Shown here: piece after piece, positions 4,686 to 41,251 of the stretch
Numbering within the stretch: position 1 is the stretch's first letter
How the letters are laid out: every line of letters begins with the position of its first letter
Program-made: the position numbers and the translations under genes
The notes under the pieces: generated by a model
What the model was told of the DNA's origin: nothing
The model's input: only the letters and a program-made list of their open reading frames with translations
The model's database searches: none
Assembly: GCA_018434685.1 (NCBI GenBank)
Contig: JAHDOV010000004.1
Coordinates: 412,808 to 476,807, forward strand
From: Deltaproteobacteria bacterium
GTDB taxonomy: Bacteria > Desulfobacterota > Desulfomonilia > UBA1062
Direction of reading: 5' to 3'
Length of the DNA: 64,000 nucleotides

Positions 4686-4715
4686 TTGACAGAAGATCGT
4701 GCATAATTGTAATTT
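4686..4715 (+). promoter_or_regulatory. Candidate sigma-70 promoter for the FHA gene
   Basis: A perfect TTGACA at 4686-4691 is followed after 18 bp by TAATTT at 4710-4715, which matches the -10 consensus weakly. Transcription would begin near 4722. That would exclude the possible GTG start at 4699 and supports the ATG at 4771. Confidence 0.45.
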
Positions 4716-4770
4716 TGTCCCCATCGAAGGGATCTTAAACGAGAAGTCAGGGGAGAGCTCGATAAATCCT

Positions 4771-11493: not shown

Positions 11494-11533
11494 AAGTTAA
11501 ATGACTCGTTTGTTCCTTGTTACATCATGTTTG

Positions 11534-19343: not shown

Positions 19344-19360
19344 AATCTCCTCCTGCTATG

Positions 19361-20341: not shown

Positions 20342-22071
20342 AGCAGGGGGTGGTCTCCTATCCGTACCGGCCACTGATAGGTGTCACCTCTCGATATCTC
20401 CTGCACGACAAAACGGGTGTAGGTATTGATTGATCCATAGGAGGAGAGGAACTCGTCGAGTATGCATCCGAACAGGTAGAGGTCTCCATAGGAGGCGAAA
20501 TGATCCTGGCGTACTCTCAGTGTTATATCCTGACCTCTCATCATGGCCCCGCCGACAATCCTGGAGGCCGGCGTCGCCTTGACCTCTTCAATGCCTGCTA
20601 TCCTTTTCTTGATGGCGAGCAGGGCTGAACGGTCTCTCGCAGACGGGAAGGTGTAGAGTTCCAGCAGGGCCTTGAGGTTTTGCGCACTGGCGAGGGACAG
20701 GTAGTTGAGAGAAAGATGAGACTGCAGGCGCCACAACAGGTTCGTTCCTAAAGGAGGAAGGACATATGAGGTGGTGGGCCTGATATTCTTGAATTCCACA
20801 GATTCAGGAGATGAGCTGGTGGGCACGCAGATATCCCCCGCCCGGAGACTCTCGGGCAGTGTTCCGTTGGTGCACTGCAGTTTCATGGAAAGGGTTTCTT
20901 TTTCCGGCAGCTCCTCTCCGGGAGGATATGCCGGAGACAGATACACAGTGAGCGTCTCTTCAACGGGTGATTGTTTTATTATCGTGTGGTAGACCGGATT
21001 TTCTTCGGTCCTCGGATTAAAAAGCTCGAAGGGCGCATACACCTTCTGCTCGGCGGTGCCGTGTTTCAATCCCACCACCTTGTCCACAGTGTATACCTGG
21101 TAATGAGAGGAATTTGACCCGGTGGGCCGGACCAGATACTCTGTCTTTGTATGATCGAAACGGATCGGATCGGCTTCATGAGGGAAGATGTTTATGACCG
21201 GAGTGGCAAAGAGGACAAAACTCTCTGCCTTCACCTTCGGCGGTGTGAAATGGAAATCATCGAGTTCGAAGGTTATGTCGAAGCGTGATCCGTCCCCCCT
21301 GTCCCTCCAGTGCTCCAGCCCGGTAAGATCGAAAAAGAGGAATTTTTCCGGCAGAATAAAATATTCCTGCAGGATCCGGTACCCCGGGAACGAGTTTGAG
21401 GGATAGGGAATCAGGGTCTCCCTCTCAGAAAAGCCTGCGGGCTTCAGGCTGTCGCTTCGAAGAACACGCTCCAGACCGCCGTCTTTTGGAGACAGTACAA
21501 TCCTCTTCACATGACTGCGCAGGAGGAGATAGAGATCTGCACAGGCGGTAAACTCCCCCGCAAGGTGAAGGCGGAGCTTGTCTATCTTCCAGTCCGACAG
21601 CTTCAGGCCGTTCAGCTCGAGCTGGAGCCTGATGGATGGCGGTTTTCCCGCCTGCTCGACAAAGGAGGCCTTTTTAATGCTTACAGGATGAACCTCGACC
21701 TCATAGCAGGTATGAAAGAAACACGAAGTCCCCTCAACGGGCAGCGACCCCAGCTGGATGCCTGCAGGAATCTTCAGGGGTTCCTTGAGCATGGGTTTCG
21801 GGCTGAAGGCCACGATGGTGGAGGCGGGGACAGGCCGCAGATAGTGAGGCCAGATCAGCTGGATGAGTTCATGGATAATCTCCGGAAACTCATCATCCAG
21901 TTTCTGCCGCAGCTGGGCTGTGAGGAAGGCCACCCCCTCCAGCAGACGCTCCACATCAGGATCCGCCGAGGGCCCGCTTAACATGGAGGCCACTGCCGGA
22001 TGTGCCTTGGAAAAGTCTGCTCCGAGATCTTTGAGCGAGTCTATCTCGGATTGGAAGTATTTTTTGAACAT
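20338..22071 (-). CDS. tssF: TssF, T6SS baseplate component
   Basis: A 577-residue ImpG/VasA-family protein. Recognisable parts are the N-terminal YFQSEIDSLKDLGADFSKAHP region, EIIHELIQLIWPHYLRPVPA, the central GYRILQEYFILPEKFLFFDL, and the C-terminal GRDI-like strand region. The ATG at 22071 with GAGGAAACC upstream is preferred to an in-frame start 24 nt earlier, which has no site. It follows tssE in the same unit. Confidence 0.93.
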   Translation of the reverse strand: MFKKYFQSEIDSLKDLGADFSKAHPAVASMLSGPSADPDVERLLEGVAFLTAQLRQKLDDEFPEIIHELIQLIWPHYLRPVPASTIVAFSPKPMLKEPLKIPAGIQLGSLPVEGTSCFFHTCYEVEVHPVSIKKASFVEQAGKPPSIRLQLELNGLKLSDWKIDKLRLHLAGEFTACADLYLLLRSHVKRIVLSPKDGGLERVLRSDSLKPAGFSERETLIPYPSNSFPGYRILQEYFILPEKFLFFDLTGLEHWRDRGDGSRFDITFELDDFHFTPPKVKAESFVLFATPVINIFPHEADPIRFDHTKTEYLVRPTGSNSSHYQVYTVDKVVGLKHGTAEQKVYAPFELFNPRTEENPVYHTIIKQSPVEETLTVYLSPAYPPGEELPEKETLSMKLQCTNGTLPESLRAGDICVPTSSSPESVEFKNIRPTTSYVLPPLGTNLLWRLQSHLSLNYLSLASAQNLKALLELYTFPSARDRSALLAIKKRIAGIEEVKATPASRIVGGAMMRGQDITLRVRQDHFASYGDLYLFGCILDEFLSSYGSINTYTRFVVQEISRGDTYQWPVRIGDHPLL

Positions 22072-22138
22072 AGTGGTTTCCTCTTCATGAACCAATCGAT
22101 CAGCACTAGGATTTTATAGAGACCATGGGGAAAGAGAA

Positions 22139-22552
22139 TTACTGTTTCACCTCTATCTTTCCGTCAGTGCCCACGTGAGATTCGAACTGCACCGGGATCT
22201 TTTCATTATCAAGGGCGAGCTGGGCCGCAATCTGAAACCGTAGCGCAAGAACCTCTTCGTCGGGGGGGAGGAAGTGAACGCGGATTGCCTTCAGACGGGG
22301 TTCATACTTTTGGATCATCTGTCGGATCGCACGTTCACAGTCCCGTACGGATTCGGGATAATTCCGCAGGGCATCCGTAAAGTCGGGAACCCCGTAGTCT
22401 TCGGCAATGGGAACACTGCCCTGCCTGGTATTGAGGATCCGCTGCAAGTGGCTGACCACGGAATCTATGGTCTTTTTCGGGTCCTCCCTGGATCGCTTTG
22501 CAGGCTCTTGTTCCCAGGACCGGATGCGTTCAAGGAGTCGTTGTTCCCGCAT
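22139..22552 (-). CDS. tssE: TssE, gp25-like T6SS baseplate protein
   Basis: A 137-residue gp25-like protein: an N-terminal LLERI box, the DSVVSHLQRILNTRQGS motif, GVPDFTD, and the conserved IRQMIQKYEPRL. TssE-like proteins bind the base of the sheath and nucleate its assembly. The ribosome-binding site is weak, 15 nt after the hcp stop, so coupling to hcp is likely. Confidence 0.92.
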   Translation of the reverse strand: MREQRLLERIRSWEQEPAKRSREDPKKTIDSVVSHLQRILNTRQGSVPIAEDYGVPDFTDALRNYPESVRDCERAIRQMIQKYEPRLKAIRVHFLPPDEEVLALRFQIAAQLALDNEKIPVQFESHVGTDGKIEVKQ

Positions 22553-22567
22553 GGCCGCTCAGAGATA

Positions 22568-23053
22568 CTACTTGGGTACTGCCCAGGAGTCTTCTGATTC
22601 GATGCCGTCGGGCTCCCAGGTCCATTTGATCTTCGAATAGGTGAACGATACCTCTTCCATGTGGCGGTAGGGCTCGTTCTCGGGTACAAAGGCGATCGGC
22701 ATGTAAGGCTTCATGCCTACCACGATCGCGTCTTCCAGGGTATGGGTGAAGTAGTGCTCTTCCGTACCGGTTGGATCGATCCGGTACCACTTTATCACCA
22801 CAGACTTCATGTGTTCGCCGGTGCACAGCGCCTGGTAGAGCTTCGGCGATGCCTTGTCGTATTCCTTTACGATGGAAAGCGGACCGTGGATCCTCTTCCC
22901 GCTGGGGAGACCGCTCTGGGGGTCGCGCGGAATATGCACGTCATGGTCCATCGCATAGACCAGTATTGTTCCTTCTCTCCCTTCCATTATGCAGGAACCG
23001 TCAATCTTGCCCTGGTTCTGCCCTTCAACCTCTAAATGACACGGCATTGGCAT
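22568..23053 (-). CDS. hcp: Hcp, T6SS inner tube protein (TssD)
   Basis: A 161-residue Hcp with the family landmarks HLEVEGQNQGKIDG, a central HGPLSIVKEYDKASPKLYQAL helix and EEVSFTYSKIKWTWEPDG at the C-terminus. Hexamers stack to form the tube expelled by sheath contraction. A strong AAAGGAGG lies 8 nt upstream of the ATG. This is the only hcp in the window. Confidence 0.95.
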   Translation of the reverse strand: MPMPCHLEVEGQNQGKIDGSCIMEGREGTILVYAMDHDVHIPRDPQSGLPSGKRIHGPLSIVKEYDKASPKLYQALCTGEHMKSVVIKWYRIDPTGTEEHYFTHTLEDAIVVGMKPYMPIAFVPENEPYRHMEEVSFTYSKIKWTWEPDGIESEDSWAVPK

Positions 23054-23091
23054 GGTAACTTCCTCCTTTGATTGTTATAATAGGTAATCTC

Positions 23092-24576
23092 TTATTCCTT
23101 ATCGAGTTTCCCCACGAGCGACAGGGTGAAAAAAGCCCCCATGTATTTGAAATGGGGTCTGACCTGGAGACCGACGCGATACCACCCCGGCTCGCCGGCC
23201 ACATCTTCCACGGTGACCTTTGCCTGGCGCAGCGGTCTGCGGCTTCTCACACCGGGCATGGGATTGTCCATGTCGGCGACATACTGGCGGATCCAGTTGT
23301 TCAGCTCGCGATCCAGATCCACCCGTTCCTTCCAGGTGCCGATATTCTCCCGCTGGATCACCTTCAAATAGTGCGCGAGCCGGTTGACGACAAACATGTA
23401 CGGCAGTTGCAATCCCAGCTTGTAGTTGAGCTCTGCCTCTTTGCCCTCTTTGCTGATGCCGAAGAATTTCGGTTTCTGAACGGAGTTGGCAGAGAAGAAC
23501 GCGGCATTATCGCTTCCCTTGCGCATGGTGAGCGCGATAAATCCTTCCTCGGCAAGTTCAAACTCCCTGCGTTCCGAGACAAGTATCTCGGTGGGGATTT
23601 TGGTCTGTATGGCCCCCATTGCCTCAAACTGGTGGAGCGGCAGGTCTTCGACTGCTCCGCCGCCCTGGGGACCGATAATGTTTGCACACCACCGGTATTT
23701 TGCAAAGCTGTCCGTGAGCTTCGAGGCAAAGGCAAAGGCGGTGTTCCCCCACAGATACTGATCGTGACCGTCAGAGACATTCTCCTTGTAGTTAAAGGCC
23801 TTTACGGGCTGCGTGTCGGGGCCGTACGGGAGACGCAGGAGAAATCTCGGCAGCGTGAGACCCACATAGCGGGCATCTTCAGACTCTCTGAATGAATTCC
23901 ACTTGGTGTACTGGGGGCCTTCAAAGACCGATTTGAGGTCCTTGAGCTGCGGCAGGTTGGTGAAATCATCAAGCCCGAAGAACTGGGGCCCTGCAGCTGA
24001 AATAAAGGGTGCGTGGGCCATGGCCGCAACGCTGGCGACATTCTGCAAAAGTTTGATGTCCTGGGGGCCCGGTCCGAAATCGTAATTCCCGATCATGGCA
24101 GCATAGGGCTGGCCGCCGAACTGACCGTATTCTGCGGTATACACCGTCTTGTACAACCCGGATTTGGGGATCTCCGGTGCGTCTTCAAAATCCTCCAGGA
24201 GGTCGTCCTTGCTTACATTGAGAAGCTCCAGTTTGACGTTTTCCCGAAAATCTGTCCGGTCCACCAGGAATCTCAGGGATCGCCAGGCCGATTCGATTTC
24301 CTGGACCTTGGGATTGTGGAGAATGGCGTCGAGCTGTCGGCTCAGTTTCTCATCCACCTCCGCAATCATGTCGTCCACAACGGCTTTTGAGATCTTCTCG
24401 ACTTTGTTGCCGGGTTCTATGAGCTGTGCGATCAGGGCCTCAACGCCCTTTTTCGCGAGTGAATACGAATCATCGCTAGGCTTTAATTTGGTAGCGGTTA
24501 CTATTTCATCCAGCAGCGAAACCTCCTGGGTGGACTGTTGCTGTTCTGCCTGGACTTGTTCTTTTTCCTCAGCCAT
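23092..24576 (-). CDS. tssC: TssC, large sheath subunit
   Basis: A 494-residue EvpB-type sheath protein. Signatures include QEIESAWRSLRFLVDRTDF, GNYDFGPGPQDI, NLPQLKDLKSVFEGPQYTKW, RLPYGPDTQPV, the EDLPLH loop and IPTEILVSERREFELAEEGF. AGGAGG lies 8 nt before the chosen ATG; a GTG 9 nt upstream overlaps that site and is rejected. With TssB it forms the contractile sheath. It provides the reference for the fused TssB-TssC paralogue at 5.8-7.4 kb. Confidence 0.96.
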   Translation of the reverse strand: MAEEKEQVQAEQQQSTQEVSLLDEIVTATKLKPSDDSYSLAKKGVEALIAQLIEPGNKVEKISKAVVDDMIAEVDEKLSRQLDAILHNPKVQEIESAWRSLRFLVDRTDFRENVKLELLNVSKDDLLEDFEDAPEIPKSGLYKTVYTAEYGQFGGQPYAAMIGNYDFGPGPQDIKLLQNVASVAAMAHAPFISAAGPQFFGLDDFTNLPQLKDLKSVFEGPQYTKWNSFRESEDARYVGLTLPRFLLRLPYGPDTQPVKAFNYKENVSDGHDQYLWGNTAFAFASKLTDSFAKYRWCANIIGPQGGGAVEDLPLHQFEAMGAIQTKIPTEILVSERREFELAEEGFIALTMRKGSDNAAFFSANSVQKPKFFGISKEGKEAELNYKLGLQLPYMFVVNRLAHYLKVIQRENIGTWKERVDLDRELNNWIRQYVADMDNPMPGVRSRRPLRQAKVTVEDVAGEPGWYRVGLQVRPHFKYMGAFFTLSLVGKLDKE

Positions 24577-24593
24577 GAGAGGCACCTCCTTTC

Positions 24594-25079
24594 TTATTTT
24601 TCAACCCCGAGCTCTTTAAGCAGGAGTTCGCGGGTCTTTTCGTCCTTGATGAGTTCCTGGATCTTTTTCCGGAATTCAGGGATATTACTCAGAGGTCCCT
24701 TCAGTGCGGTGAGCGATTCCCTCAACTCGAGAAGGCGGTTCAGTTCGGGCGTGTTCTTCGCAATAGCCTCCGGATTGAAGTCCTTCATGGATTCGAACTT
24801 CAAAGAGACCTTCATCTCGTCATCGGCCTTGCCGGAAAGCTTGTTGGGGACCGTGACGTCCAGTTTGATATTGCGTGCCTTTAAGACCTCATCGAAGTTG
24901 TCCTTGTCAATGGTTACCGGATCGCGCTCCTCAACTGGCCTGTCATCTCTCTGCCCGGTAAAATCACCCATTACCAGAACCTTGAGCGGGAGTTCCACCT
25001 CTTCCTTTGCATCTCCCGTAGCCGGGCGATACACAATGTTTACCCTTTCTTTCGGGGCAACGGTTGCTTCCTTTGCCAT
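24594..25079 (-). CDS. tssB: TssB, small sheath subunit
   Basis: A 161-residue VipA-type sheath protein with the RVNIVYRP start, DPVTIDKDNFDEVL, LKFESMKDFNPEAIAK and the C-terminal helix bearing LRELLLKELG-type residues. A strong AAAGGAGG site precedes the ATG. It lies 17 nt upstream of tssC in the usual tssBC arrangement. Confidence 0.96.
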   Translation of the reverse strand: MAKEATVAPKERVNIVYRPATGDAKEEVELPLKVLVMGDFTGQRDDRPVEERDPVTIDKDNFDEVLKARNIKLDVTVPNKLSGKADDEMKVSLKFESMKDFNPEAIAKNTPELNRLLELRESLTALKGPLSNIPEFRKKIQELIKDEKTRELLLKELGVEK

Positions 25080-25106: not shown

Positions 25107-26687
25107 TTATTTCTTTACCAGCAGAAGCGCTTGTTTCGGACTGAGTTTCGCGATTCTGTTCAGGGCATCGATTGAGGTGTTCTGGGACACGTCCGATGGA
25201 TGCATGGAAAAACCCCTCCACACCATACTCAGTGCTCTCAGGGCCAGAGCGGGCTCCCATTCTTCCAGCCGGTACAGCTCGATTGTATGCCGCAGCTCTT
25301 CGAGATGGGGCAGGGCCGTCTCAAGTTTTTTTGCACTGAGGAGTATCTCGCTCAGCGCGAGCCGCCAGAGCATCCTCTCCTTTTGAGAAACACTTCTGAT
25401 CAGTTCTTCCTGGATTGCTTCAACCGCCTCGAGAAGGTTGTTCTTGCCTGCAAGGGTTTTGGCATGGTTGATCTTTTCCGCCATCTCGTCTTCACCCGGG
25501 CCGTGGGTGGAGGTTTGCATGGGGGCCGGTTCGATGCCGACACCGGTGCCTCCCAGTGAGATGAGCCTCAGCCAGTCCCTGGTGTTCTGGTCGGCAAAGG
25601 GGGTACCGTCAGAGAAGGTCAGGTCGGTGAGCCCTGAAAGCCGGTCCACAAAAAAGGCTGTTTCCTGACATACCGCATCATGCGCGCTGCGGTAGCGGCC
25701 ACCCATATTCTCAAGGGAGAGTGCCACGAACCGGTTCAGATCGAGACAGAAGATAAACTGGTTCAGCCGGCGTTCTGCCGATTTCAAAAGAGCCTCCCAA
25801 TCTCCCTTCGCATGCAGGTCATGCAGGATCTTCATGATTTTGGGATCTGGGGGCGGGATACGCGTCTTGTTGTTTTCACTGGGCGGCGTCGCCTCCACAG
25901 AAGACCAGGCAGCGGTGCGGGAACATCTGTAGGTCAGTGCATTTTCCGGCGACGTTTCCAGAAAATACGCTGCTACCTTCCGCAGTTCCTGGAGACCCGA
26001 GCGAAGAACTCGCCACGCGTCCTTTTCGGATTCTATGCCCTCGGTTCTCTGCGGTGGTTGCGGCTGTTCACTTTTTGGCGCGGGTATGGGCTCTGGTTGA
26101 GGTTCTTGTACCTGCTGTTGAATCTCTTTTGCCGGTTCGGGGTTTCCCTCGGCCTTGATCGTAAAACCTTCCAGTGACCGCTTGACGGCACTTATCGAAG
26201 GGGAATCTTCGAGGTAACCCTTAAGGAGGGAATCTATTGTGTCGAGGGACTCCAGGCTGTCCTGCATCTGCTCGGGAGAGAAAGCGCCCTTATCGAGCTG
26301 TTTGAGTGCAATCTCGGTTTTCTCAACCCACCACTGGATGGCCCCTATGCGGCCCCGCATACGTTTTTTTGACGGGAAGAGATCGTCCCAGAAATGCTCG
26401 ATTACATCGCGATAGATGTGCACACCCTTGAGAAAGCCCTCGACCCTGGCACAATAGATCTGTGATACCGCCAGATAGCCTGCCACGAGAATGTCCTTTG
26501 ACTTGTCTTTAAGGATTCCTGATGAGAGGGCGTTTACCTTTTTCCAGTCAACACCGCTCGATGCCGAGGGCGAAGTCAGCTTGTCGATCTCGGCCTGCAG
26601 CCTGTCAAACTCTGGTTCGTAGCGGGCATCGGCCCCGGCGGGCTGATCGGGATGAATGGGAGTTGTTCCCAGCGACACCATATCCAT
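25107..26687 (-). CDS. tssA: TssA, T6SS assembly and sheath-cap protein
   Basis: A 526-residue protein with an N-terminal ImpA_N domain (residues ~20-150, with DWKKVNALSSGILKDKSKDI and YRDVIEHFWDDLFPSKKRMRGR), a Pro/Gln-rich linker at ~185-215, and a VasJ-like C-terminal half (~230-526, with LRKVAAYFLETSPENALTYR). This long form with VasJ marks a cap-type TssA, which primes and holds the distal end of the growing tail. Confidence 0.93.
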   Translation of the reverse strand: MDMVSLGTTPIHPDQPAGADARYEPEFDRLQAEIDKLTSPSASSGVDWKKVNALSSGILKDKSKDILVAGYLAVSQIYCARVEGFLKGVHIYRDVIEHFWDDLFPSKKRMRGRIGAIQWWVEKTEIALKQLDKGAFSPEQMQDSLESLDTIDSLLKGYLEDSPSISAVKRSLEGFTIKAEGNPEPAKEIQQQVQEPQPEPIPAPKSEQPQPPQRTEGIESEKDAWRVLRSGLQELRKVAAYFLETSPENALTYRCSRTAAWSSVEATPPSENNKTRIPPPDPKIMKILHDLHAKGDWEALLKSAERRLNQFIFCLDLNRFVALSLENMGGRYRSAHDAVCQETAFFVDRLSGLTDLTFSDGTPFADQNTRDWLRLISLGGTGVGIEPAPMQTSTHGPGEDEMAEKINHAKTLAGKNNLLEAVEAIQEELIRSVSQKERMLWRLALSEILLSAKKLETALPHLEELRHTIELYRLEEWEPALALRALSMVWRGFSMHPSDVSQNTSIDALNRIAKLSPKQALLLVKK

Positions 26688-26700: not shown

Positions 26701-27435
26701 CTAATTTTCATAGAAAGAACTCCCGGACCACAGCTCTGCAAAATCTGCCGGCTGCAGCGACCTGTTGTAGATTACGAGGCAGCTCCTCTGTGGAATCCCC
26801 CCGAGAAATACTGCATTGGGCAAAGGGCTGTTTCCCGGTGGCAGTCCATTGAGCCACCGGGCGGCATCCACACAAGGAGTATCGCCCGCAGTGACATGAT
26901 GCAGGACACCCTCTTTTTTGGTATGGATTTCAGCATCGTTCAGATAAGCCCTGGTATCTGGATGATCATCGCGCTCGAATGCCTTGTGCGCGGGAAAAGC
27001 GGTGTGCACAGGTCGCAGTCTGCTGAGTTCGCCGGTCAGCTCATGTAAGGTTTTAAGACCCTTGAGGAAGAGATCTTCCATGGAGCTCCAGGTTTCTTCA
27101 AGGACAACAGGGAGCTCCTTCCAGTTATCTTCCCAGTCTGCAAGATATCCTGTCCCGATAATCAGGCAGGGAAACGGCCTGCCGATACTGTCGTGGCTGT
27201 CTCTCACAAGACCGCAGACGAGGTGGCATTTTTTTGTCCCCCTGGCCCAGAACCGCCAGGAGTTCAAGCTGTGATTATCCCCATGTCTCATCATCCCAAA
27301 ACCGGTTTCAACCCAGGTGCAGAAGGCATTAAAGAGCGGCACATCCGACCCGAGCCGGATAAAATCGCGAGCTACCGGATGTTTGCCGAATGCTGCCCAT
27401 ACCCAGTCCTTGTTTGATCTCAGCGATCCCAGCAT
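26701..27435 (-). CDS. tagF: TagF-like T6SS accessory protein
   Basis: A 244-residue protein of the TagF/ImpM family: FGKHPVARDFIR, then FNAFCTWVETG, SWRFWARG and the FPCLIIG strand. In Pseudomonas, TagF acts as a post-translational repressor that is relieved by PppA or Fha signals. The start lies 16 nt inside the end of tssM, in another frame, so translation is coupled. Its presence beside a kinase, phosphatase and FHA set fits a phospho-controlled T6SS. Confidence 0.9.
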   Translation of the reverse strand: MLGSLRSNKDWVWAAFGKHPVARDFIRLGSDVPLFNAFCTWVETGFGMMRHGDNHSLNSWRFWARGTKKCHLVCGLVRDSHDSIGRPFPCLIIGTGYLADWEDNWKELPVVLEETWSSMEDLFLKGLKTLHELTGELSRLRPVHTAFPAHKAFERDDHPDTRAYLNDAEIHTKKEGVLHHVTAGDTPCVDAARWLNGLPPGNSPLPNAVFLGGIPQRSCLVIYNRSLQPADFAELWSGSSFYEN

Positions 27436-30400
27436 GGAGCGATAGTCTCGGGAACATTCCCCGGCCCGGATGCCAGCAGGTTCAATACCGGAGTGCTGCC
27501 CACGATCCGGTACTGCACCTTGATATACTGAATTTTCATGCTTCTCAGAGAGGCCTTCTCCCTGGGGAAATCATCCGGAGAAAACGTGTGTTGACCGGAT
27601 TTGAAATCCTCAAGGAACCTGGCAAAGGCTAAAGACCCCGAGTAGCGTTTTGTCAGGACAAGATTGCCCACCTCTATGGAAAACACAACATCGCCGCAGC
27701 TTCCCGGTATCCACTCGAAGACCTTGCGGACCGGATAATTGAGATTCGACAGATTCGTTGTAGTCCCGGCGCACTGAAGTTCGAGATGGGTGGCATGAGG
27801 CTTCATGGTTGCCTTGGGGTTCACGTCTGTGGGCAGTCCGGTGATGGTGACGCTATAGCTGGACTGTACACTGCGGGGTCCTTTCGTGAGAAACGTCATG
27901 AAGGACTTTTCAAACGGGACGCTTCTTCCCAGGACCTCCTTTGCAAAATAACCCTTGGCCGGAGACCTGCTGATGAAGGCAGAGGCGTCACCTTTTACGA
28001 ACTGTATTGCATAGCCGTCTTTTTCTAAAAGGATATTGTTCACCGTGAGGGGGTCCGCTACCCCTTTGACCTCCATGAGGACATCCTTTGCCCACAGCGA
28101 CTGAAGGTGACAGGCCGTCTCCTGGCACGAGTAGGCCCAGAGATAATCAAGAGGGCCTCGCACCACCTTCCAGAACTCCTCGCGTGCAGGCACGCCGCTT
28201 GCCTCGATAAGGCTGTTCAGTGCAGAGTGTGCTGCGTGGAATTGAGAGGAGCTGCCCGATGGTTCGTCTTTGAAGGTCAGCGTGGTCAACTCAAAGGCGC
28301 CTTTCCGGGAGGCAGTTACCAAAGGGGCAATCTCTTTTATGGCACTGAAGTATTCCAGATATGCCTTTGCCGCAGCGAGCTGTGAATCAAACGGTATGTC
28401 ATCGGAGGCGGTCCCCACCTTTTTCTGAATCGTATTCTTGAGCTTGGCCCCTTTCTTCGTTGCCTGGGCAAGAACCCCGTCTTTGGCGATATCCAGCTTG
28501 GACGCCATGGTTTTCACTGCCTTAAAGTCTTTTATGAGCCGCAGCCAGTTCGGCACATCATCTTTGTCACAAAACGGCTCCAGTTCGTACACCATTTTAT
28601 CAAGCAGGGCGAGATATGGTCCTTCACCGGCTGCAACCCTCGACGCTGCCTGCATCCATTCATCCTGTCCCTTGAGCCGGTCTGCGCCGTCGGAAAAAGA
28701 GAGGCCGAACGTGTGCCATGCCTCGACATAGGCCCTGGCATACCACTGTTCAAAGGCCTGCCGCCCCGGGGAGATCACGAGCGGATCAGCCAGCGCTGAT
28801 TCCATTTCCTTCAAGAACGTTTCGATCTGATCTCTTCCTGCGCGGGTCAGCGAGGGAGACACGACTGCTTGACCGTCTACGTCCAGGCTTCCACCCCAGA
28901 AATCGACCATCTTCACTTTCGGCAGGTCTGATGTCTCATTTACCCAGGCTGCAAGCCAGTTGAGGTTGGTGCTTTTCACGGTCACGATATGGGCCAGCAC
29001 CTTCTCCAGATCGAGCTTCTCGGAGTTGAGAGTTCCCAGGTCACTCTCCCAGGCAATGCTGTACAGATACAGGGCAGAAAAACTCTGGCTCAGTTCATCC
29101 ACAAATTCCTGACCGGTCAGACCCGGTTCGAAGGTAGGTTGCGGGAGTTGGGTCAGATCCTGAAGTTCTCCTCCATCGAGCCGGGCTTTCAGCAGGTTGA
29201 TTCTCCTGACAAGATGGGCCACAGAGACACCGAGCAGCACATCGGGAGTAGCTTCGGAAAAGCCCGACACGCCATCGGTCATACGTTTATCGAATGGTTT
29301 TAGCAGTTGCCCTCTGAACTGCGAGGAGCAGGTATTCTTAAGACTGGTTTCCACCTCCTTGCTCTTGCTCAGACCAAGCCTTGGTATCCACCATCCGGCA
29401 TTATGGCCCTCAACACGGACTGCAGCCTCTCGGAAACGGTCCATAATCCCGACATCGGCCAGCAGTTCACCCTTTAAGACCGGGGGATGAGAGAATTCAC
29501 GGGAGATTGTTCTCAGGGCAGTCAGGTTCTTTACGAAAGAAAAACTCAGCAGACCGCACAAGGCAATGATCAGTGCCATGCATGCGACGAGCCCCAGGTT
29601 TCTCGTGAGCCTGTTCCAGGCGAGAGAGGTTTGGGTGGGTGCAAAGAGATCCCGCTGGCTCGGGAGGATTTTTGCAAAGATGTCGTGGAGGAACAACCCT
29701 TTATTGGTTCCCGGCAGGATCTCCCGCTCTTCGATGAGGTTGAGTTCACTCAAGAAATGCGAATAGGGTGTCCCCTCCTGGCGGCCGCTGCTGAAGTAGA
29801 GACCTTGAAGGATTGGAGTCTCCTGGTACGGATTTTCCTGGAAGGCCCCCTTCATGAAGGCCTTGAGGCCGGGGCCTACCCGTTCGAATTCTTCCGGGAA
29901 AAGCAACAGCGTCGGATCGAGGTCACCTGAGGAGGGTTTATGGAAAAGGAGCAGCCTGATGCTTCTCAGGCGCTGTCCCACCGTAAGGAGCACGCGCTCG
30001 GTAAAGGCAACAGGGTCCTTAGAGCCTGCATGGTTGATGGATCCCATGGCCTGTTCGAGATCTTCCTCGGAGAGTTGCTGGGAAAAACTGGTCATTCCCT
30101 GAATCAGATCGCACTTGGTTACCAGGACATATACGGGGAATTTGCTTCCCAGAACACGCATCAGCTCATTGATACGCTGCCTGATGGTGCGGCCGTCGTC
30201 CTCGAGCACGGAAGACTGGGAGTCGAACAGCTTGTCCGCTGCCAGGGAAATCACCAGCCCGTTTAAGGGTTCCTTCCTGCGATACCTGGCGAGCAGGGAG
30301 AGGAATTTCTGCCATTCCTCCTTGTCTCGGCCCTCGTCGACAGGGATGGCATACCTGCCCGCTGCATCAAGGATGATCGCCTGCTCGGAAAACCACCAGT

Positions 30401-30875
30401 CTATGTTCTTCGTCCCGGAAAGGCCGGAGACGTGGTGAACCTCGGCAAAGGGGGAAGAAAGCCTGGCGCTCGTGATGGCCGTGGTTTTCCCCGAACCGCT
30501 CTCGCCGAGGATCAGGTACCAGGGCAGCACATACATCGGATTCCCGTATTTTTTCAGATGCGATGACCTGAGCGTATCCATGGCATCTTTCCAGTTCTGC
30601 TGGAGATCCGCTGACGACTGGCGCTCATCCGATTGTAAGGACCGCGCATAGGATTCATCCTGCTCGATGATCTGGCTGACAAAGCGCTGTTCGCGTTTCC
30701 TCAGCAGTATCTTCCGGAGAAAGATCAGTGCCACTCCGATACCGAAAAGTCCGAACAGGATAAAGATGCCCACCCACCAGGGCCAGTCTATGACCAGGAC
30801 GATTCCGAAGATCAGGAGAACGATCAGTATGACCGGGGCGACTATAAGAGCTGCTTTTATCATTTTCGCAATCAT
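27420..30875 (-). CDS. tssM: TssM (IcmF), T6SS inner-membrane complex protein
   Basis: A 1151-residue IcmF protein. Two transmembrane helices lie at ~5-55 (LIVAPVILIVLLIFG and WVGIFILFGLFGIGVALIF), followed by a cytoplasmic P-loop domain with GESGSGKTTA at ~125, and a third helix at ~430 (LVACMALIIALCGLLSF). A large periplasmic part of ~700 residues follows, which in other species contacts TssJ. The Walker A motif is intact, so ATP binding is possible. The ATG at 30875 follows GAGG by 6 nt; a TTG 12 nt further upstream overlaps this site and is not used. Confidence 0.95.
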   Translation of the reverse strand: MIAKMIKAALIVAPVILIVLLIFGIVLVIDWPWWVGIFILFGLFGIGVALIFLRKILLRKREQRFVSQIIEQDESYARSLQSDERQSSADLQQNWKDAMDTLRSSHLKKYGNPMYVLPWYLILGESGSGKTTAITSARLSSPFAEVHHVSGLSGTKNIDWWFSEQAIILDAAGRYAIPVDEGRDKEEWQKFLSLLARYRRKEPLNGLVISLAADKLFDSQSSVLEDDGRTIRQRINELMRVLGSKFPVYVLVTKCDLIQGMTSFSQQLSEEDLEQAMGSINHAGSKDPVAFTERVLLTVGQRLRSIRLLLFHKPSSGDLDPTLLLFPEEFERVGPGLKAFMKGAFQENPYQETPILQGLYFSSGRQEGTPYSHFLSELNLIEEREILPGTNKGLFLHDIFAKILPSQRDLFAPTQTSLAWNRLTRNLGLVACMALIIALCGLLSFSFVKNLTALRTISREFSHPPVLKGELLADVGIMDRFREAAVRVEGHNAGWWIPRLGLSKSKEVETSLKNTCSSQFRGQLLKPFDKRMTDGVSGFSEATPDVLLGVSVAHLVRRINLLKARLDGGELQDLTQLPQPTFEPGLTGQEFVDELSQSFSALYLYSIAWESDLGTLNSEKLDLEKVLAHIVTVKSTNLNWLAAWVNETSDLPKVKMVDFWGGSLDVDGQAVVSPSLTRAGRDQIETFLKEMESALADPLVISPGRQAFEQWYARAYVEAWHTFGLSFSDGADRLKGQDEWMQAASRVAAGEGPYLALLDKMVYELEPFCDKDDVPNWLRLIKDFKAVKTMASKLDIAKDGVLAQATKKGAKLKNTIQKKVGTASDDIPFDSQLAAAKAYLEYFSAIKEIAPLVTASRKGAFELTTLTFKDEPSGSSSQFHAAHSALNSLIEASGVPAREEFWKVVRGPLDYLWAYSCQETACHLQSLWAKDVLMEVKGVADPLTVNNILLEKDGYAIQFVKGDASAFISRSPAKGYFAKEVLGRSVPFEKSFMTFLTKGPRSVQSSYSVTITGLPTDVNPKATMKPHATHLELQCAGTTTNLSNLNYPVRKVFEWIPGSCGDVVFSIEVGNLVLTKRYSGSLAFARFLEDFKSGQHTFSPDDFPREKASLRSMKIQYIKVQYRIVGSTPVLNLLASGPGNVPETIAPCWDR

Positions 30876-30883
30876 GGGTATCC

Positions 30884-31561
30884 TCAAGGTGCTACGCTTA
30901 GGATTGTTTCGCCGATATTATGCAGAATGAACCGGTACAGGATGAAGAGAACAAAGTAGAGCGCCACGGGCAGGCCCAGGCAGGAGATGGTGAACAGCGA
31001 AAACCTGGAGGGTTTCCTGTCCGGGGAGGCGGCCTGTGAAGCGGCAGGATATGCCTCGGGAAAGAGCTCCCCTTTCTCTAACGCCGGAATCCCCACGGAG
31101 CTTGCCAGGAGAACCTTCAAGTTGGAGGTCTTCAATTGTTCGAGCAGGTATGCGTCGTCAACATTACCGTAACGGCCCTTAAATCCCATTGCCAGGCACA
31201 GATAGTACACCTCTCTCACATCATTCTGGTGCGGCCCGATGGCATTGAGACGGTCAAAGAAGAGCTCTCCTGCATTCGTGGTCTGATAGTAGAGGCGCTG
31301 AAGGGGCTCCCTCTGCCAGCGGAGTCTGTCGTTCCATGGAGAATTCATGATGGCCTCATCAATCCACGCACACATCGCAAAACGTGCCGAGACATAATCC
31401 TCCTCGGCCGCAGTGCCCGGGGATATACTCTGACGGCTCTGGGTCATCAGGCGTTCGATATCCAGGCGTACCTGGTCAAAGCCGGGCTGTTTTTTCGCCA
31501 CGGTCTTGAGGAAATATACGACATAGGCAATGAGTTCTACGAAACAATCACTTAAGTGCAT
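30884..31561 (-). CDS. tssL: TssL (DotU), T6SS inner-membrane anchor
   Basis: A 225-residue DotU-type protein with the cytoplasmic helical domain (VSARFAMCAWIDEAIMNSPW, FFDRLNAIG, EVYYLCLAMGFKGRYG) and a single C-terminal transmembrane helix (LGLPVALYFVLFILYRFIL). There is no peptidoglycan-binding OmpA extension, so cell-wall anchoring must come from another protein. The ATG at 31561 is 2 nt after the tssK stop, with GGGAG 9 nt upstream. Confidence 0.94.
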   Translation of the reverse strand: MHLSDCFVELIAYVVYFLKTVAKKQPGFDQVRLDIERLMTQSRQSISPGTAAEEDYVSARFAMCAWIDEAIMNSPWNDRLRWQREPLQRLYYQTTNAGELFFDRLNAIGPHQNDVREVYYLCLAMGFKGRYGNVDDAYLLEQLKTSNLKVLLASSVGIPALEKGELFPEAYPAASQAASPDRKPSRFSLFTISCLGLPVALYFVLFILYRFILHNIGETILSVAP

Positions 31562-31563
31562 GA

Positions 31564-32949
31564 TCAACTTCTCCCTACTACCATGAGTTCAACCGATAAA
31601 TCCTCGGGTGCCGTATCCCAGTACAGTGCCAGGTTTTTCACCTTTTGCACGCTGGTCCACTGATCGTTGTGATGGTCGATCTGAAAGTACAGGGCGCCTG
31701 CGCGGCGCGGGAGTTCCTGGGGGGGGGAGGAGAGATGTTTCAGGGCGATGGCCGGAAGGGCCCGCACAATCAGGAGAGGGAGCTGTTCTCTGGAGCTCAG
31801 TTTTGCGCCGGTGTCCAGAGAGCTGAGCACTGATCCCTGCTCCTGTTCGGTCTCGATAACCAGATAAAAGCGGTTTTTTCCTTCGAATATCGCAGGCGGG
31901 AGTTCAGCGAAATAGTAGGTGCCGTCGTAGTCAAGCTGAAACACATATTCGGGCCCGGCAGTGATCTCGTCTAATAAAGAGGTGATCATACTCTGTGCCC
32001 GGGAAAAACATTCTCCGAGATTCTTGTGGTGATATCCCATCCCCGGGGTTTTCTTCTCTGCGGTCTCACCCGTGACCGATATGGTGTTCGAGAAGGAGGA
32101 GAGCTCGCCGATCAAAGACCGCAGGTGGCCATAGACCATCCAGGGATGAACCGATTTTTCATCGGTCAGATGAAAGAGCCCGGGGATATAGCGATTGAGC
32201 GTTCTCTGGGCGAGCAGATAGACCATGTCACGCGCCCCGAATTCAGCACTATGGATGCCCCGCCCGCGCTTATATTCCTCGAGCTGGTGCCCGCGGGCCG
32301 AGACCTGATCCCTGATTTCCCTGACAATCTTCTCGAGCAGGTCAGAGGCGGAGATGGTAAGGCACGGAGGGATGAAGGTCTTGGAAAGTACAATCTCGCT
32401 GCCGCTTCTTTCCAGTTGAGCCAGGGGAATGATCTCATAGTCCCCGAAACGGTCCTGTTCGGTTTCCCAGAATATCTTCAGAACATAACTCAGCCTCTTG
32501 AGCTGTGCGGATGGCCCGTCCTGGTAGAGATCCCGGACCTCTTCTGGCTCTGCCGGCGCGACGAACCTGGTCGTCACCGCAGAGAGGCCTTCATTGGCGG
32601 TAAGAGCGGTCACATTCTCACCGTGATTCGTCCATTTTTTCAGCCCGAGATATATGGTGAAAGGTTTACCGCCCTCCACCCACTCATCTTCAAAATACCG
32701 TGATTGGACGAGCGCATTTTCAGGCAGAACCACATAGGTTGCATCGGGGAATATGAATTCTCCGGCCAGGAGTTGAAAGCTCTTTGTGCCTAACGCGGTA
32801 CGCTGAATTTCCATATTCGCAACTCCCCACATATGGGGGTTGGGATAGCGGTACAGAGGGGTCAGGAGAGATTGGTAATAGCGGTCCGAGAGCTGAAAAT
32901 GCTGTGGCTGGAGAAAGAGCCCCTGATGCCATAAGAGTTGTCGTTCCAT
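31564..32949 (-). CDS. tssK: TssK, T6SS baseplate-membrane adaptor
   Basis: A 461-residue TssK with the N-terminal family block WHQGLFLQPQHFQLSDRYYQ, the YFEDEW motif and a C-terminal domain with YFQIDHHNDQW. TssK trimers connect the baseplate to TssL and TssM. The ribosome-binding site GGGAG overlaps the end of the tssJ reading frame. Confidence 0.94.
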   Translation of the reverse strand: MERQLLWHQGLFLQPQHFQLSDRYYQSLLTPLYRYPNPHMWGVANMEIQRTALGTKSFQLLAGEFIFPDATYVVLPENALVQSRYFEDEWVEGGKPFTIYLGLKKWTNHGENVTALTANEGLSAVTTRFVAPAEPEEVRDLYQDGPSAQLKRLSYVLKIFWETEQDRFGDYEIIPLAQLERSGSEIVLSKTFIPPCLTISASDLLEKIVREIRDQVSARGHQLEEYKRGRGIHSAEFGARDMVYLLAQRTLNRYIPGLFHLTDEKSVHPWMVYGHLRSLIGELSSFSNTISVTGETAEKKTPGMGYHHKNLGECFSRAQSMITSLLDEITAGPEYVFQLDYDGTYYFAELPPAIFEGKNRFYLVIETEQEQGSVLSSLDTGAKLSSREQLPLLIVRALPAIALKHLSSPPQELPRRAGALYFQIDHHNDQWTSVQKVKNLALYWDTAPEDLSVELMVVGRS

Positions 32950-32953: not shown

Positions 32954-33475
32954 CTATTCTCCCTTGGGTGTTAATATCTGTTGTGGTCCCAGCACAAGGT
33001 TGATATCCATCTTCTTGGGAACCGATTTTCTGCTCACCCCCACCTTCTGTGTCGGGATCTTGTAAAAACGAACGATCATGTTCTTGTCGATGGTGTAATA
33101 CCCGGCTACTATGGCGATATACTTTGCCCCTTCCGCCCGGTCCAGGGTCTCATTGAGCTCCTGACCCGGATGGACGATCAGCCTCTTGGTAACCGCCACA
33201 CTGGCATCAAAGATGCTGCAGTCCAGGAGTTGGTATATGCCGTCAGGATCGTCTGAGAGTTGATGGAAGGTGTTGGGATCTTTGAGCTGATACACACACA
33301 CCGACAGGGTGTGCGATGTGCCGTCCTTGAAATTTAATTTCTCATCGGCATTGAGATGGAGAGTTATGGCGTCTTGTTCATACTCCCATCTCGGGGGGGT
33401 GCGCGAGGCACAGGAGCAGACAAGGGGAAGGATAAAAGCAAGCAGCATTATGCCGAGGATAAACCTTTTTACCAT
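32954..33475 (-). CDS. tssJ: TssJ outer-membrane lipoprotein, copy in the T6SS operon
   Basis: A 173-residue lipoprotein: a signal peptide ending in the lipobox VCSC with a mature N-terminal Cys-Ala, then PPRWEYEQDAITLHLNADE, the loop LSVCVYQLKDPNTF and the FYKIP strand. It tethers the TssLM complex to the outer membrane. The ATG at 33475 follows AAGGAGGT; an in-frame extension upstream has no site. A second copy of similar sequence is at 40.5-41.1 kb. Confidence 0.94.
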   Translation of the reverse strand: MVKRFILGIMLLAFILPLVCSCASRTPPRWEYEQDAITLHLNADEKLNFKDGTSHTLSVCVYQLKDPNTFHQLSDDPDGIYQLLDCSIFDASVAVTKRLIVHPGQELNETLDRAEGAKYIAIVAGYYTIDKNMIVRFYKIPTQKVGVSRKSVPKKMDINLVLGPQQILTPKGE

Positions 33476-33589
33476 GATACCACCTCCTTGGTAACCGCTT
33501 GTGCAGCCGACGGTTATTTTGGGGCTACAAACTCTAGAGCAGTCTCTGACCAATACTGTCCTGCATACCGTAACGATCCGGGCGGGATA

Positions 33590-34300
33590 CTATTTCACGA
33601 ATAATTTCTGGCAATTCTTTTCAAACTCCCGCAGGAAATCTTCCATGAATCGGCCTGATTCATACCACTGCTTGAACTGATGAAACGTTTTTTCATACAG
33701 ATCAAAGGATTCCGCCTTTTTCAAGGGGCCAAACTTCAACGAGCCGCCTGTTTTCGATGATATGTTCTGCGGGTCCAGCTCGGCGAGGATTTTGTCCAAT
33801 GAGGTGGATGCGGCGATTTTAAAGGCCTGCTGTGTAACGAGGAAGGCCTTCTTGATCTGTCCGAGGTGCTCCTCCAGGGGTTGAGCCGGGCCTTCTCCCT
33901 CCAGGTTCTCTCCAATGACGTGTCGAATGGTCTCGTTGCCTGCCGGGCATGTTGCAAACGTAGAGTTGATCACCCCGATGAGCTGGTTGACGATATCGAA
34001 GATGGTGTTTAAGGATAACGCCAGACGCTCGAGGACCTCGGGGGAAGAGAGATCTTCCCTGCCTGCGGTTTTGCCCAGGACGAGCCGTACCACACGGTCG
34101 ACGACTTCCTGTTCCGAATGAACGCTTGCAGGTACCGGGAGGAATCTGGCACCGAGGTCCTGTATCACCGATAGCCGCTGCTCAAGGGGCAGCTCGTTGA
34201 GTTCGGCGTCCAGATAGTCTTCAATCGTCCGGGAGGCATCCCGGGGTGAGGATGCATAGAGCTTCGATATCTCTTCGATAAGCGTCTGGGTGGAAGTCAC
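33590..34300 (-). CDS. Stand-alone domain resembling the TagH C-terminus
   Basis: A 236-residue soluble, helical protein starting at GTG behind AAAGGA. The C-terminal half (LEEHLGQIKKAFLVTQQAF, DKILAELDPQN, YEKTFHQFKQWYE, FLREFEKNCQKLF) matches the pattern of the helical domain found behind the FHA domain in T6SS TagH/Fha proteins. There is no FHA domain. The double-FHA protein at 4.8-5.7 kb lacks this domain, so the pair may be one protein split in two. The gene starts 3 nt after the preceding stop codon. The family assignment is by motif only. Confidence 0.65.
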   Translation of the reverse strand: MTSTQTLIEEISKLYASSPRDASRTIEDYLDAELNELPLEQRLSVIQDLGARFLPVPASVHSEQEVVDRVVRLVLGKTAGREDLSSPEVLERLALSLNTIFDIVNQLIGVINSTFATCPAGNETIRHVIGENLEGEGPAQPLEEHLGQIKKAFLVTQQAFKIAASTSLDKILAELDPQNISSKTGGSLKFGPLKKAESFDLYEKTFHQFKQWYESGRFMEDFLREFEKNCQKLFVK

Positions 34301-34303: not shown

Positions 34304-36601
34304 CTATCCTTTGTCAGGCTTGAGGATAATCGTTTCAGCCAGGAAGTCTTCTTCATCGGCACTACCCCCCATGTCGCCACGATCCGGTGTATCCGATGGT
34401 TCGCTTTTTGGGAGATTCGGGTTCATGATAACGGTCTGGTCGCCGGCATCGCTGTGGAGAATGACCGTTTCGGCAAGATCGACATCCCGGGCAGGGTCTT
34501 GCGGACCCTCGTGTTTGTGAGGGGGCGATGGTTGCTCAGATTCACCGCTATTGAGATCGTTGCCTCCTGCTCTTGTATTGACCGGGTCTGTTCCGGATTC
34601 AGGATTCAGGATTACCGTTTCATCCAGATCTTCTTCAAGACCTCCAGGAGTCACGTGCGAGCCTGCATCCGGGGCCGGCTCTTCGGGCTCACCTGTGCCC
34701 GGGACATGTTGGCCCGATTGCATCATGATGGTCTCAGTGATGATGTCATCGATTTTCCGCGGAGGTTCCACACGCACTTCATCGCTGGAGAGGATAACGG
34801 TCTCCAGTACATCTTCTTCATCTCCGCAGCGTGTGCCGGGGTCTGTATCGGTTGCCTGGAGGATGAGTGTTTCTTCCGGTTCATTCGCAATGGCCGGTTC
34901 GGGTTGGGCAGGCTCAGGTGCGCCCCCTGTCAGCACAACCGTTTCGGCAAATTCTTCTTCCCCGGCCTCGGGCTGTGCAGACCATCTTGAGAGAATCTGC
35001 CCGAGGATCTCATGAATTGCGTCATTGGCGGGCGGGCCTGCTTTTTCGGCAGCACTTTCCGATCCGGGCTGGAACAGGGTGTTACGGATTTCTCCCCGGA
35101 GTTTATCAAATGCCTTCCAGAAATCGCCCTCAGACAACCGGGACTCATCAGAAACAGAGCTCTTGAGCAAAGCCCATCCCAATCCGAGGGCGTCACGCCA
35201 GAGGCCGGACCATTTCTCCGGAACGGACTTTCCCTTAGGGGTCCAGAAGATGTTCTCAGGGCTGAACAGGTGGGAATACTCCTCCATCACAGAGGTCTCG
35301 GTAAAGGTTGCGGTGAGGGCATCGGTGCGCGTAAGGCCTGTTGCCAGCACGGCAGGTATGTCCCCCGCCTTCAGGGCCTGATTCCCTAAAAGGCCGTGAA
35401 ACCATACTGTGCCGAGAAAATAGTTTGCTGCCAGCGGAGGTGCACTCGGCAGATGCTTGAGCGGAACCCCGCCGATATCGATCAGGTTCGCCTGAAAATT
35501 CCAGAAGAAAGGCAGGAGGTTCTCCTCGTGCGTGAGGCTGATCCAGACCCTGTCGAGGCAGATATTAAAGGGGGTGTTCCGGCAGGATGTGATGCCCGAA
35601 AAAACGATACGGGCAAGTTGACCCAGGAAGGATAGTTTCAGGTATAGGATCTCGAGGAAAGACCGTTGGTCCTTATCAAACAGGAACGGGGTTGCTTGTG
35701 CTGCCTGAAGGGCAACGGCATCGACAGAGGGAATTCTGCCAAACTGCCTGGTTGCGTTGAGCCGGTCACGGAGTTCCCCGAAGGATGCCCCACAGAGCAC
35801 GGCAAGAAAGTCAAAGGCATTGATGGAGGCAGACTCAAGGATGAGCAGGTGAAAGGGGTAAAAGGAAAAGGGGATGATCCTGGTGAGTGCCAGATTACGC
35901 TGATCGTAACACTCGCCCTTCAGTGGGCACCGGGTGCAGGGGAACTGATCGCTTTCTGCCTCATCCAGGGAGCCGAATCCCGTTATCAGCTGATGAGGAT
36001 CTTTTATGCATTGCGGATCGGTATGATCAAGGGCAGATGCATAGAAATCCGTACGCCCTTTGTTTTGCAGACAATCCGGACAGTACAGGTAGCGTCTCAG
36101 GGATGATGGATATGCCTGAAGCCCGCAGGAGATGAGTAGGTCATCATCTTTGCAGAGCGCAAGAGAAGTGCCGCAGTGCGGGCAGGGGGGATGAAAGAAG
36201 ATCTCACGGGACCGGCAGTAGAAGAGCGGCTGAAATTGCTGTATCCGGCCGTCTTCACCGACCTGGTCTGCCAGCAGTATAGCGGAGCTGCCCAGGCTGC
36301 AGCGCTCGTATGCCTCCTGCCAGCATTGCTCCACCAGCTCATTGTTCAGCCCGGTGCTCTCGTTATTGGCCTGAGGATAGGTGTCTTTGTCGAGCAGGAG
36401 AAAAACCCGCTTTATGATACTGCCATGATCGCTTTCAATCCGGGCCTGGATGATGCGCGTAAAGGGACCGGATTCACTTATGATGGCGAAAGGAAAACGC
36501 AGCGCTCCACCAGGGGTGGTCTGGTGGGGAGTACGGGAGATATCGAGGCGGGAGATAGCCTTCCCGGGGTTGATATATGGCAGTAATGAAGGCATAACCA
36601 T
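34304..36601 (-). CDS. Unknown Zn-finger protein with eight FHA-ligand-like ETVIL motifs, first gene of the T6SS operon
   Basis: A 765-residue protein I do not recognise. Residues ~1-520 form a globular region with cysteine pairs CPHC (~140), CPDC (~175) and CTRC with a further Cys (~220), consistent with one or two zinc-binding ribbons. Residues ~540-765 are disordered, acidic and proline-rich, with eight short motifs of the form [EQ]-T-[VLI]-[VIM]-[LM], their Thr at about 554, 578, 601, 624, 662, 712, 723 and 757. Each offers a threonine with Leu or Met at +3, the residue type favoured by several FHA domains. With a kinase, phosphatase and FHA protein in the same cluster, this looks like a multi-site phospho-scaffold. 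No signal peptide or membrane segment is seen. The ribosome-binding site is weak. Confidence 0.8.
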   Translation of the reverse strand: MVMPSLLPYINPGKAISRLDISRTPHQTTPGGALRFPFAIISESGPFTRIIQARIESDHGSIIKRVFLLLDKDTYPQANNESTGLNNELVEQCWQEAYERCSLGSSAILLADQVGEDGRIQQFQPLFYCRSREIFFHPPCPHCGTSLALCKDDDLLISCGLQAYPSSLRRYLYCPDCLQNKGRTDFYASALDHTDPQCIKDPHQLITGFGSLDEAESDQFPCTRCPLKGECYDQRNLALTRIIPFSFYPFHLLILESASINAFDFLAVLCGASFGELRDRLNATRQFGRIPSVDAVALQAAQATPFLFDKDQRSFLEILYLKLSFLGQLARIVFSGITSCRNTPFNICLDRVWISLTHEENLLPFFWNFQANLIDIGGVPLKHLPSAPPLAANYFLGTVWFHGLLGNQALKAGDIPAVLATGLTRTDALTATFTETSVMEEYSHLFSPENIFWTPKGKSVPEKWSGLWRDALGLGWALLKSSVSDESRLSEGDFWKAFDKLRGEIRNTLFQPGSESAAEKAGPPANDAIHEILGQILSRWSAQPEAGEEEFAETVVLTGGAPEPAQPEPAIANEPEETLILQATDTDPGTRCGDEEDVLETVILSSDEVRVEPPRKIDDIITETIMMQSGQHVPGTGEPEEPAPDAGSHVTPGGLEEDLDETVILNPESGTDPVNTRAGGNDLNSGESEQPSPPHKHEGPQDPARDVDLAETVILHSDAGDQTVIMNPNLPKSEPSDTPDRGDMGGSADEEDFLAETIILKPDKG

Positions 36602-40547: not shown

Positions 40548-41066
40548 CTAGCGTCCCTGGGGGGTCAAGATCTTATTCCTGCCAAGGATCAGGGTGATGT
40601 TCATCTTCCCCGGGACATTGGTCCGGTGGAGGCCTTTCTTGACCACCGGGATCTTGTAGAAGCGTATGCTGCCGGCTTTGTCCATGCCGGAGTAGCCGGC
40701 CACGATGCCGATATATTTCACCCCCACTTCCCGGTCAAGCGTCATGGTCAGCTCCTGATCCGGGTGCACGATCACCCGCCTGGTGCCTGCCACGCTGGGG
40801 TCGAAAATACCACACTCGGAAAGCTGAAGCAGGCCGTCCTGCTGGTCGGCGAACCGTTGGAAGGCCTTGGGATCTTTGAGCTGATAGACACACACCGACA
40901 GGGTGTGCGCTGCCTCGTCATGCAAGTTGAGCTGTTTGTCCGCCCTGAGATTGATTGTTATGGCGTCGGGCTCATACACCCACCGCGGCGGGTTATGTTT
41001 TGCACAAGAGAAGAGCAGGAAAAGACTACAGATTAGCAGGATTGCCACGGAAACAGATCTTTTCAT
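40548..41066 (-). CDS. TssJ, second copy outside the T6SS operon
   Basis: A 172-residue lipoprotein very like the operon copy: lipobox FSC with Cys-Ala, then NPPRWVYEPDAITINL, TLSVCVYQLKDPKAF, IFDPSVA, IVHPDQEL and the FYKIP strand. By eye the mature parts share around half their residues, and some DNA segments are nearly identical. It starts at an ATG behind TTAGGAGG. An orphan tssJ might supply an alternative outer-membrane anchor, or be a recent duplicate. No other T6SS gene is nearby. Confidence 0.9.
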   Translation of the reverse strand: MKRSVSVAILLICSLFLLFSCAKHNPPRWVYEPDAITINLRADKQLNLHDEAAHTLSVCVYQLKDPKAFQRFADQQDGLLQLSECGIFDPSVAGTRRVIVHPDQELTMTLDREVGVKYIGIVAGYSGMDKAGSIRFYKIPVVKKGLHRTNVPGKMNITLILGRNKILTPQGR

Positions 41067-41251
41067 CCTAGAGCCTCCTAACGTCTCACAAGGGATATCG
41101 AACTCCTGCAAGAGATCCTCACTGGTGCCACGATTGAGCGATGTGTCGAACCGCTCTTTGATCTCTTCGTGTCCTCAATTATCCGTGCGAAGCAATGATA
41201 CCCTTTCATCGCAAAAACAAACACCTGGAACCGTGCAGCATCAATGGTGTG

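Follow-up and report, generated by a model that had tools for sequence, protein, structure and literature searches.

In the classical T6SS threonine-phosphorylation pathway (PpkA/PppA/Fha of Pseudomonas aeruginosa, Agrobacterium tumefaciens and Acidovorax citrulli), a single protein, Fha, holds the FHA domain, the phosphorylated threonine and the C-terminal domain, and in P. aeruginosa its gene, fha1, stands directly before tssJ-K-L-M-tagF. Repeated threonine motifs that lie in a disordered region and are read by FHA domains are characteristic of eukaryotic SQ/TQ cluster proteins, which have a different motif and serve a different process from those described below, and to which we propose no relation. 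In A. citrulli, Fha is described as a phosphorylated scaffold that recruits T6SS parts and forms condensates with PpkA, its Thr640 being required (PMC12607579), and in Agrobacterium the FHA domain binds TssL that is phosphorylated at Thr14 (PMC3953482). Most work on when and where a T6SS assembles has addressed one Fha architecture.

The whole stretch of DNA analysed here (the window) comprises 64,000 nucleotides of contig JAHDOV010000004.1 of a Deltaproteobacteria bacterium, and contains a core T6SS cluster, a linked Ser/Thr kinase and PP2C phosphatase, and an FHA domain with intact phosphothreonine-binding residues, three of the features by which a T6SS threonine-phosphorylation pathway is recognized. 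It has in common with the PpkA/PppA/Fha pathway that kinase, PP2C and FHA protein are tied to the T6SS cluster, as well as a threonine acceptor (a candidate in this case), TagF, and an Fha C-terminal domain protein encoded just before TssJ-K-L-M. It differs in that Fha is split, with the FHA domain on a separate, two-FHA protein, and in that one to eight candidate sites are carried, here and in relatives, by a scaffold protein of predicted pseudokinase fold (SCAF) as opposed to the single TssL Thr14 (PMC3953482) or Fha Thr640 (PMC12607579). No multi-site T6SS phosphorylation scaffold like SCAF was found in the literature searched, nor any paper that mentions ETVIL or treats FHA control of a Desulfobacter T6SS, although such absence is weak evidence.

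We consider it likely that SCAF serves as a scaffold for assembly in a threonine-phosphorylation pathway specific to the T6SS, one in which the Fha switch has been divided among three proteins and its phosphothreonine replicated. Under this hypothesis, the role of the Fha C-terminal domain would fall to the product of the next gene (33590-34300) and that of phosphothreonine reader to the two-FHA protein (4699-5703), the phosphothreonines being repeated along the tail of the kinase-fold scaffold, which has a zinc-type insert. A Ser/Thr kinase would phosphorylate the tail threonines, the FHA protein would bind pT-x-x-[LIM], multiple sites would add avidity or promote clustering at the membrane complex, and the phosphorylation of the tail would be reset by PP2C. 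Tail phosphorylation, FHA binding, the clustering or graded effect and the effect on assembly are what we infer from the evidence given below. An earlier note on this DNA had proposed a phospho-switch, an interpretation that is, as a whole, partly supported; it missed the kinase-fold N-terminus, the Fha-C gene next door (i.e., the split Fha) and the existence of free-standing tail genes.

Gene order of the T6SS operon

34304-36601, minus strand: SCAF, 765 aa, predicted pseudokinase-fold N-terminal domain plus multi-threonine tail (ORF, homologue searches)
33590-34300, minus strand: Fha-C protein, 236 aa, carrying the C-terminal domain of T6SS Fha (PF20232) but lacking an FHA domain (Pfam)
32954-33553, minus strand: TssJ (TIGR03352)
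31564-32949, minus strand: TssK (TIGR03353)
30884-31567, minus strand: TssL, short (TIGR03349)
27420-30887, minus strand: TssM (TIGR03348, below its cut-off; conserved position)
26701-27435, minus strand: TagF (PF09867)
25107-26687, minus strand: TssA (PF06812, PF16989)
16710-25079, minus strand: TssB, TssC, Hcp, TssF, TssG and ClpV (Pfam matches)

As the earlier note had stated, SCAF heads the T6SS operon, being the first gene of a minus-strand run that continues with Fha-C, TssJ, TssK, TssL, TssM, TagF, TssA, TssB, TssC, Hcp, TssF, TssG, ClpV and VgrG. Since P. aeruginosa fha1 directly precedes tssJ-K-L-M-tagF, the SCAF and Fha-C genes together sit where fha stands. An FHA domain and PF20232 were not encountered in one polypeptide here; the 33590-34300 product matches PF20232 only and SCAF matches neither. 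PF20232 is matched by 28 of the 30 Fha-C homologues, weakly (best E 6.5e-6), and is too insensitive for proving that Fha-C is absent (it missed the gene in G132); for that purpose, sequences were instead compared directly with the Fha-C protein of the window.

SCAF gave no useful match in Pfam, NCBIfam or PDB sequence searches. Homologues of its N-terminal domain (query, the N-terminal 520 residues) were detected in 13 of 148 genomes comprising its own and those of relatives, in 21 genomes of a phylum-wide sample of 395, and at 65 loci in the GTDB collection, the record names of which refer to Desulfobacterota-type bacteria, Nitrospirota, Geobacter, Deferribacteres and one Planctomycetia bin. 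Many carriers are sulfate reducers or their relatives, and cultured ones include Desulfospira joergensenii and Desulfosarcina widdelii (L102 and L103). That homologues should lie in T6SS operons, as the phospho-switch interpretation implied, proved correct for nearly all continuing contigs, along which the order SCAF-FhaC-TssJ-K-L-M-TagF-TssA is retained. The exception is locus L090, the contig of which continues without TssJ; it has SCAF, Fha-C, FHA, PP2C and kinase genes, and TssB is found elsewhere in that genome.

Tail motifs and their conservation

34982-35029, minus strand: helix xxILxxIxx[RK]W, residues 525-540, just before the tail and retained in free-standing tails
34307-34981, minus strand: tail, predicted disordered, residues 541-765, eight candidate phosphothreonine motifs (motif scan; low pLDDT)

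All eight [EQ]T[VLI][VIM][LM] motifs of SCAF lie within its last 213 residues and span about 205 of them, reading, in order, ETVVL, ETLIL, ETVIL, ETIMM, ETVIL, ETVIL, QTVIM and ETIIL (starts at residues 553, 577, 600, 623, 661, 711, 722 and 756), in a tail whose pLDDT was mostly below 40 in a first prediction from nine full-length sequences. The eight motifs, reported before, are confirmed and are far above chance, with 20,000 shuffles of the 240-residue tail yielding a mean of 0.0056 motifs and a maximum of one per shuffle. Further, among the 1,623 stop-to-stop frames of at least 100 aa in 464 kb of the same genome (including 400 kb beside the window), SCAF alone has at least two [EQK]T[VI][IV][LIM] motifs.

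The motif persists among homologues: it occurs in 63 of 64 tails, missing only from one of 15 residues, the median copy number is four, and the 64 tails (10,935 residues) together hold 259 motifs vs. 3.8 expected by shuffling. The consensus is acidic at -4 to -7, has Leu/Ile/Met at -3 and mostly Glu at -1, followed by Thr, Val/Ile, Ile/Val and Leu/Ile/Met at +3, and Ser-Pro often comes after the +3 position. The earlier note would have been contradicted by conserved motifs lacking Thr; when x[VI][IV][LIM] triplets are counted, which makes no demand for Thr, this residue precedes 220 of the 222 triplets in the tails, Asp and Ile one each, and Ser and Val none. Because Ser and Thr are equally frequent in the tails (7.9% vs. 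7.5% of residues) yet Ser never takes the place of Thr, it is Thr itself that is selected in the motif, and the absence of Ser is expected given that FHA domains are specific for pThr (PMC3953482). The acidic context and hydrophobic +3 position also resemble those of the Mycobacterium tuberculosis Thr sites lost on PknA depletion, which have acidic residues at -1 and -3 to -6 and Leu/Val at +3 (PMC7164672).

The tail also occurs by itself. In five genomes (G048, G085, G190, G262 and G283), a protein of ~120 aa without the N-terminal domain is encoded before Fha-C and consists of just the short helix (xxILxxIxxxW) with two to three motifs, and a motif-bearing frame was found upstream of Fha-C in all 25 readable cases among the 26 phylum genomes with Fha-C. 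Judged by these sequences, the motif tail is a unit of its own. Two apparent counterexamples were rejected: G372 seemed tail-less upstream of Fha-C until an overlapping frame was found to have hidden the tail, and G014 seemed to have a tail without motifs, the motif tail sitting in another frame of the same locus. At the latter (L026:8770-11318, minus strand), the N-terminal domain and the motif tail are in different frames, which represents a frameshift or an assembly error.

It is tempting to speculate, albeit tentatively, that the number of phosphorylated sites determines the amount of FHA protein that is gathered, together with the Fha-C domain and the membrane complex, into an assembly focus, the tail of the pseudokinase scaffold acting as a multivalent platform; if true, such a tunable platform would be a bacterial counterpart of eukaryotic multi-site phospho-scaffolds. 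Alternatively, the motifs might be phosphorylated and FHA-read with the C-terminal copy alone mattering, the others representing drift in a disordered tail with no multivalent or graded effect. In 53 of 63 tails, the last motif is indeed located at most 17 residues from the C-terminus; copy number varies from one to eight, and, since some homologues have no more than two motifs, multiplicity cannot be a general requirement. However, the median of four copies, the fact that Thr is no less strictly conserved in internal copies than in the last, and the persistence of copies in families with N-terminal domains only 29-53% identical to that of SCAF make this alternative unlikely.

Candidate reader, eraser and writer

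4699-5703, plus strand: protein with two FHA domains, candidate reader (PF00498, alignment, co-occurrence)
3932-4669, minus strand: PP2C phosphatase, candidate eraser (PF13672; near the FHA gene in relatives)
1725-2912, minus strand: Ser/Thr kinase with a PEGA domain, with HRD, DFG and the VAIK-type Lys present, candidate writer (PF00069)

The earlier note spoke of the kinase as a neighbour of the tail-bearing gene; the set of kinase, PP2C and FHA protein is co-inherited with the tail, but it is not adjacent to it in the window, lying at the far end of the cluster, ~30 kb off. Orthologues of the two-FHA protein (E <= 1e-20) were found in 12 of 146 genomes, corresponding to 12 of the 15 tail-bearing genomes vs. 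none of the other 131, and, among genomes with TssB, to 12 of 14 tail-bearing vs. none of three tail-less ones, with the caveat that the genomes counted are related to each other and the counts are not independent events. The three tail-less genomes with TssB (G066, G080 and G127) have no two-FHA orthologue, and neither Fha-C nor a multi-motif frame was found when their T6SS stretches were read. The protein is also present in 10 of 12 genomes reached through homologous loci. Across the 21 orthologues aligned, G56, R57, S73, R74, H76, N94 and T96 of the first FHA domain (FHA-A) are invariant, and the Arg position is not retained in the second.

It is also conceivable that the reader is another FHA protein and that the co-occurrence reflects the transfer of the cluster as a whole. 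Among the 15 tail carriers, G001 (79% complete), G009 and G132 lack a detected two-FHA orthologue, and a repeat search of the tail-bearing G009, G132, G150 and G157 found none either (in G150, TssB was likewise not found); these five are draft or metagenome assemblies. Further, genomes of this kind contain unrelated FHA genes at other places. Nonetheless, the almost complete separation of tail-bearing from tail-less genomes, including among those with TssB, renders this explanation rather improbable. Hence, we favor the two-FHA protein of the cluster as the reader of the scaffold tail.

PP2C, a trypsin-like protein and a kinase are encoded near the two-FHA gene in most loci fetched, and kinase architecture varies by locus (CHASE2, PEGA or other). 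Because the kinases differ between loci, writer and target are no fixed pair. In several relatives, unlike the window, a kinase gene is immediately upstream of the SCAF gene. Ser/Thr kinases with CHASE2 sensors are encoded upstream of the scaffold gene at L019:11424-13673 (minus strand; directly upstream) and L064:6558-9149 (plus strand), which suggests extracytoplasmic input to the switch. The trypsin-like protein of the window (2994-3935, minus strand) has a signal-like N-terminus and is encoded between kinase and PP2C, a place kept in many FHA/PP2C clusters of relatives.

The N-terminal domain of SCAF

35072-36601, minus strand: N-terminal domain of predicted kinase fold, residues 1-510, no conserved HRD-type Asp (AlphaFold2, VIA-align, column counts)
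35909-36217, minus strand: zinc-type insertion, residues 129-231, eight invariant Cys (alignment of 60 homologues; zinc inferred)

AlphaFold2 modelling of the N-terminal 541 residues with 60 homologues (mean pLDDT 85.5, pTM 0.86) superseded the first, nine-sequence prediction (mean pLDDT 45.7). The best VIA-align match of the predicted model is the IRAK3 pseudokinase (Z 14.7, rmsd 3.5, 246 aligned residues), and protein kinases recur throughout the 50 matches listed; Foldseek with the same model returned no match below E 0.001 (best E 0.086). Column counts over the 60 homologues revealed no conserved Asp at the HRD position and a DFG-like Asp in 40 of 60; midway along the b3-like strand, Lys is not conserved, although residue 72 further on is Lys/Arg. 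The HRD, DFG and VAIK positions were set by predicted strands, not by superposed coordinates. The domain is thus probably a pseudokinase that, on this model, looks catalytically dead.

This part of SCAF had previously been read as zinc ribbons. The Cys pairs concerned (CPHC, CPDC and CTRC) are present, but the domain is mainly a predicted kinase fold, and in the model the Cys insertion follows the aC-like helix and precedes the strands that come next. Cys 129, 140, 143, 174, 177, 222, 225 and 231 are invariant in the 60 homologues, including the three CxxC knuckles C140/C143, C174/C177 and C222/C225, a zinc ribbon requiring two. No Pfam zinc-ribbon family matched SCAF above its cut-off; the insertion may bind zinc.

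A pseudokinase-fold protein and FHA domains are likewise part of one secretion machine in type VIIb secretion (EssB/YukC and EssC), in which the FHA domains of EssC, devoid of phosphate-binding residues, contact the pseudokinase domain directly (PMC10765036). In our case, the FHA domain has an intact site and its candidate target is the tail. It is quite improbable that the ETVIL motifs provide phosphate-independent beta-strand docking for a T6SS subunit, with Thr kept for its strand propensity: Thr-Val-Ile-Leu does favour beta strands and the pseudokinase EssB binds FHA domains that have no phosphate-binding residues (PMC10765036), but Val or Ile should then replace Thr, which Ile does once and Val, like Ser, never in the 222 triplets, and the co-inherited FHA protein retains its full phosphate-binding site. 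A merely structural role for Thr was set aside, since Val and Ile fail to replace it.

Implications

The likeliest reading of the locus is a split and multiplied Fha, and with it a variant form of the T6SS threonine-phosphorylation pathway. With the Fha parts separated by evolution, scaffold, reader and C-terminal domain become testable one by one, and the natural series of one to eight sites could be used to probe what multiplicity does. The tail may also reveal which short peptide motif a bacterial FHA domain recognizes, and the locus brings a protein of pseudokinase fold together with an intact FHA protein in one secretion pathway.

Other genes in the window

A gene beside that of the two-FHA protein (5804-7375, plus strand) has a TssB-like N-terminal (PF05591) and a TssC-like C-terminal (PF05943) stretch, with a similar gene at that place in several relatives; from these matches, its product appears to be a fused or sheath-like T6SS accessory. 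Separate from the TssJ gene of the operon, a second gene for a TssJ-like lipoprotein (40548-41111, minus strand) lies upstream of LepA and HemW. Finally, two large pentapeptide-repeat proteins, one fused to DUF2169, are encoded behind VgrG (9463-14044, minus strand) with a DUF3540 protein next to them, and these could possibly be effector or loading genes.
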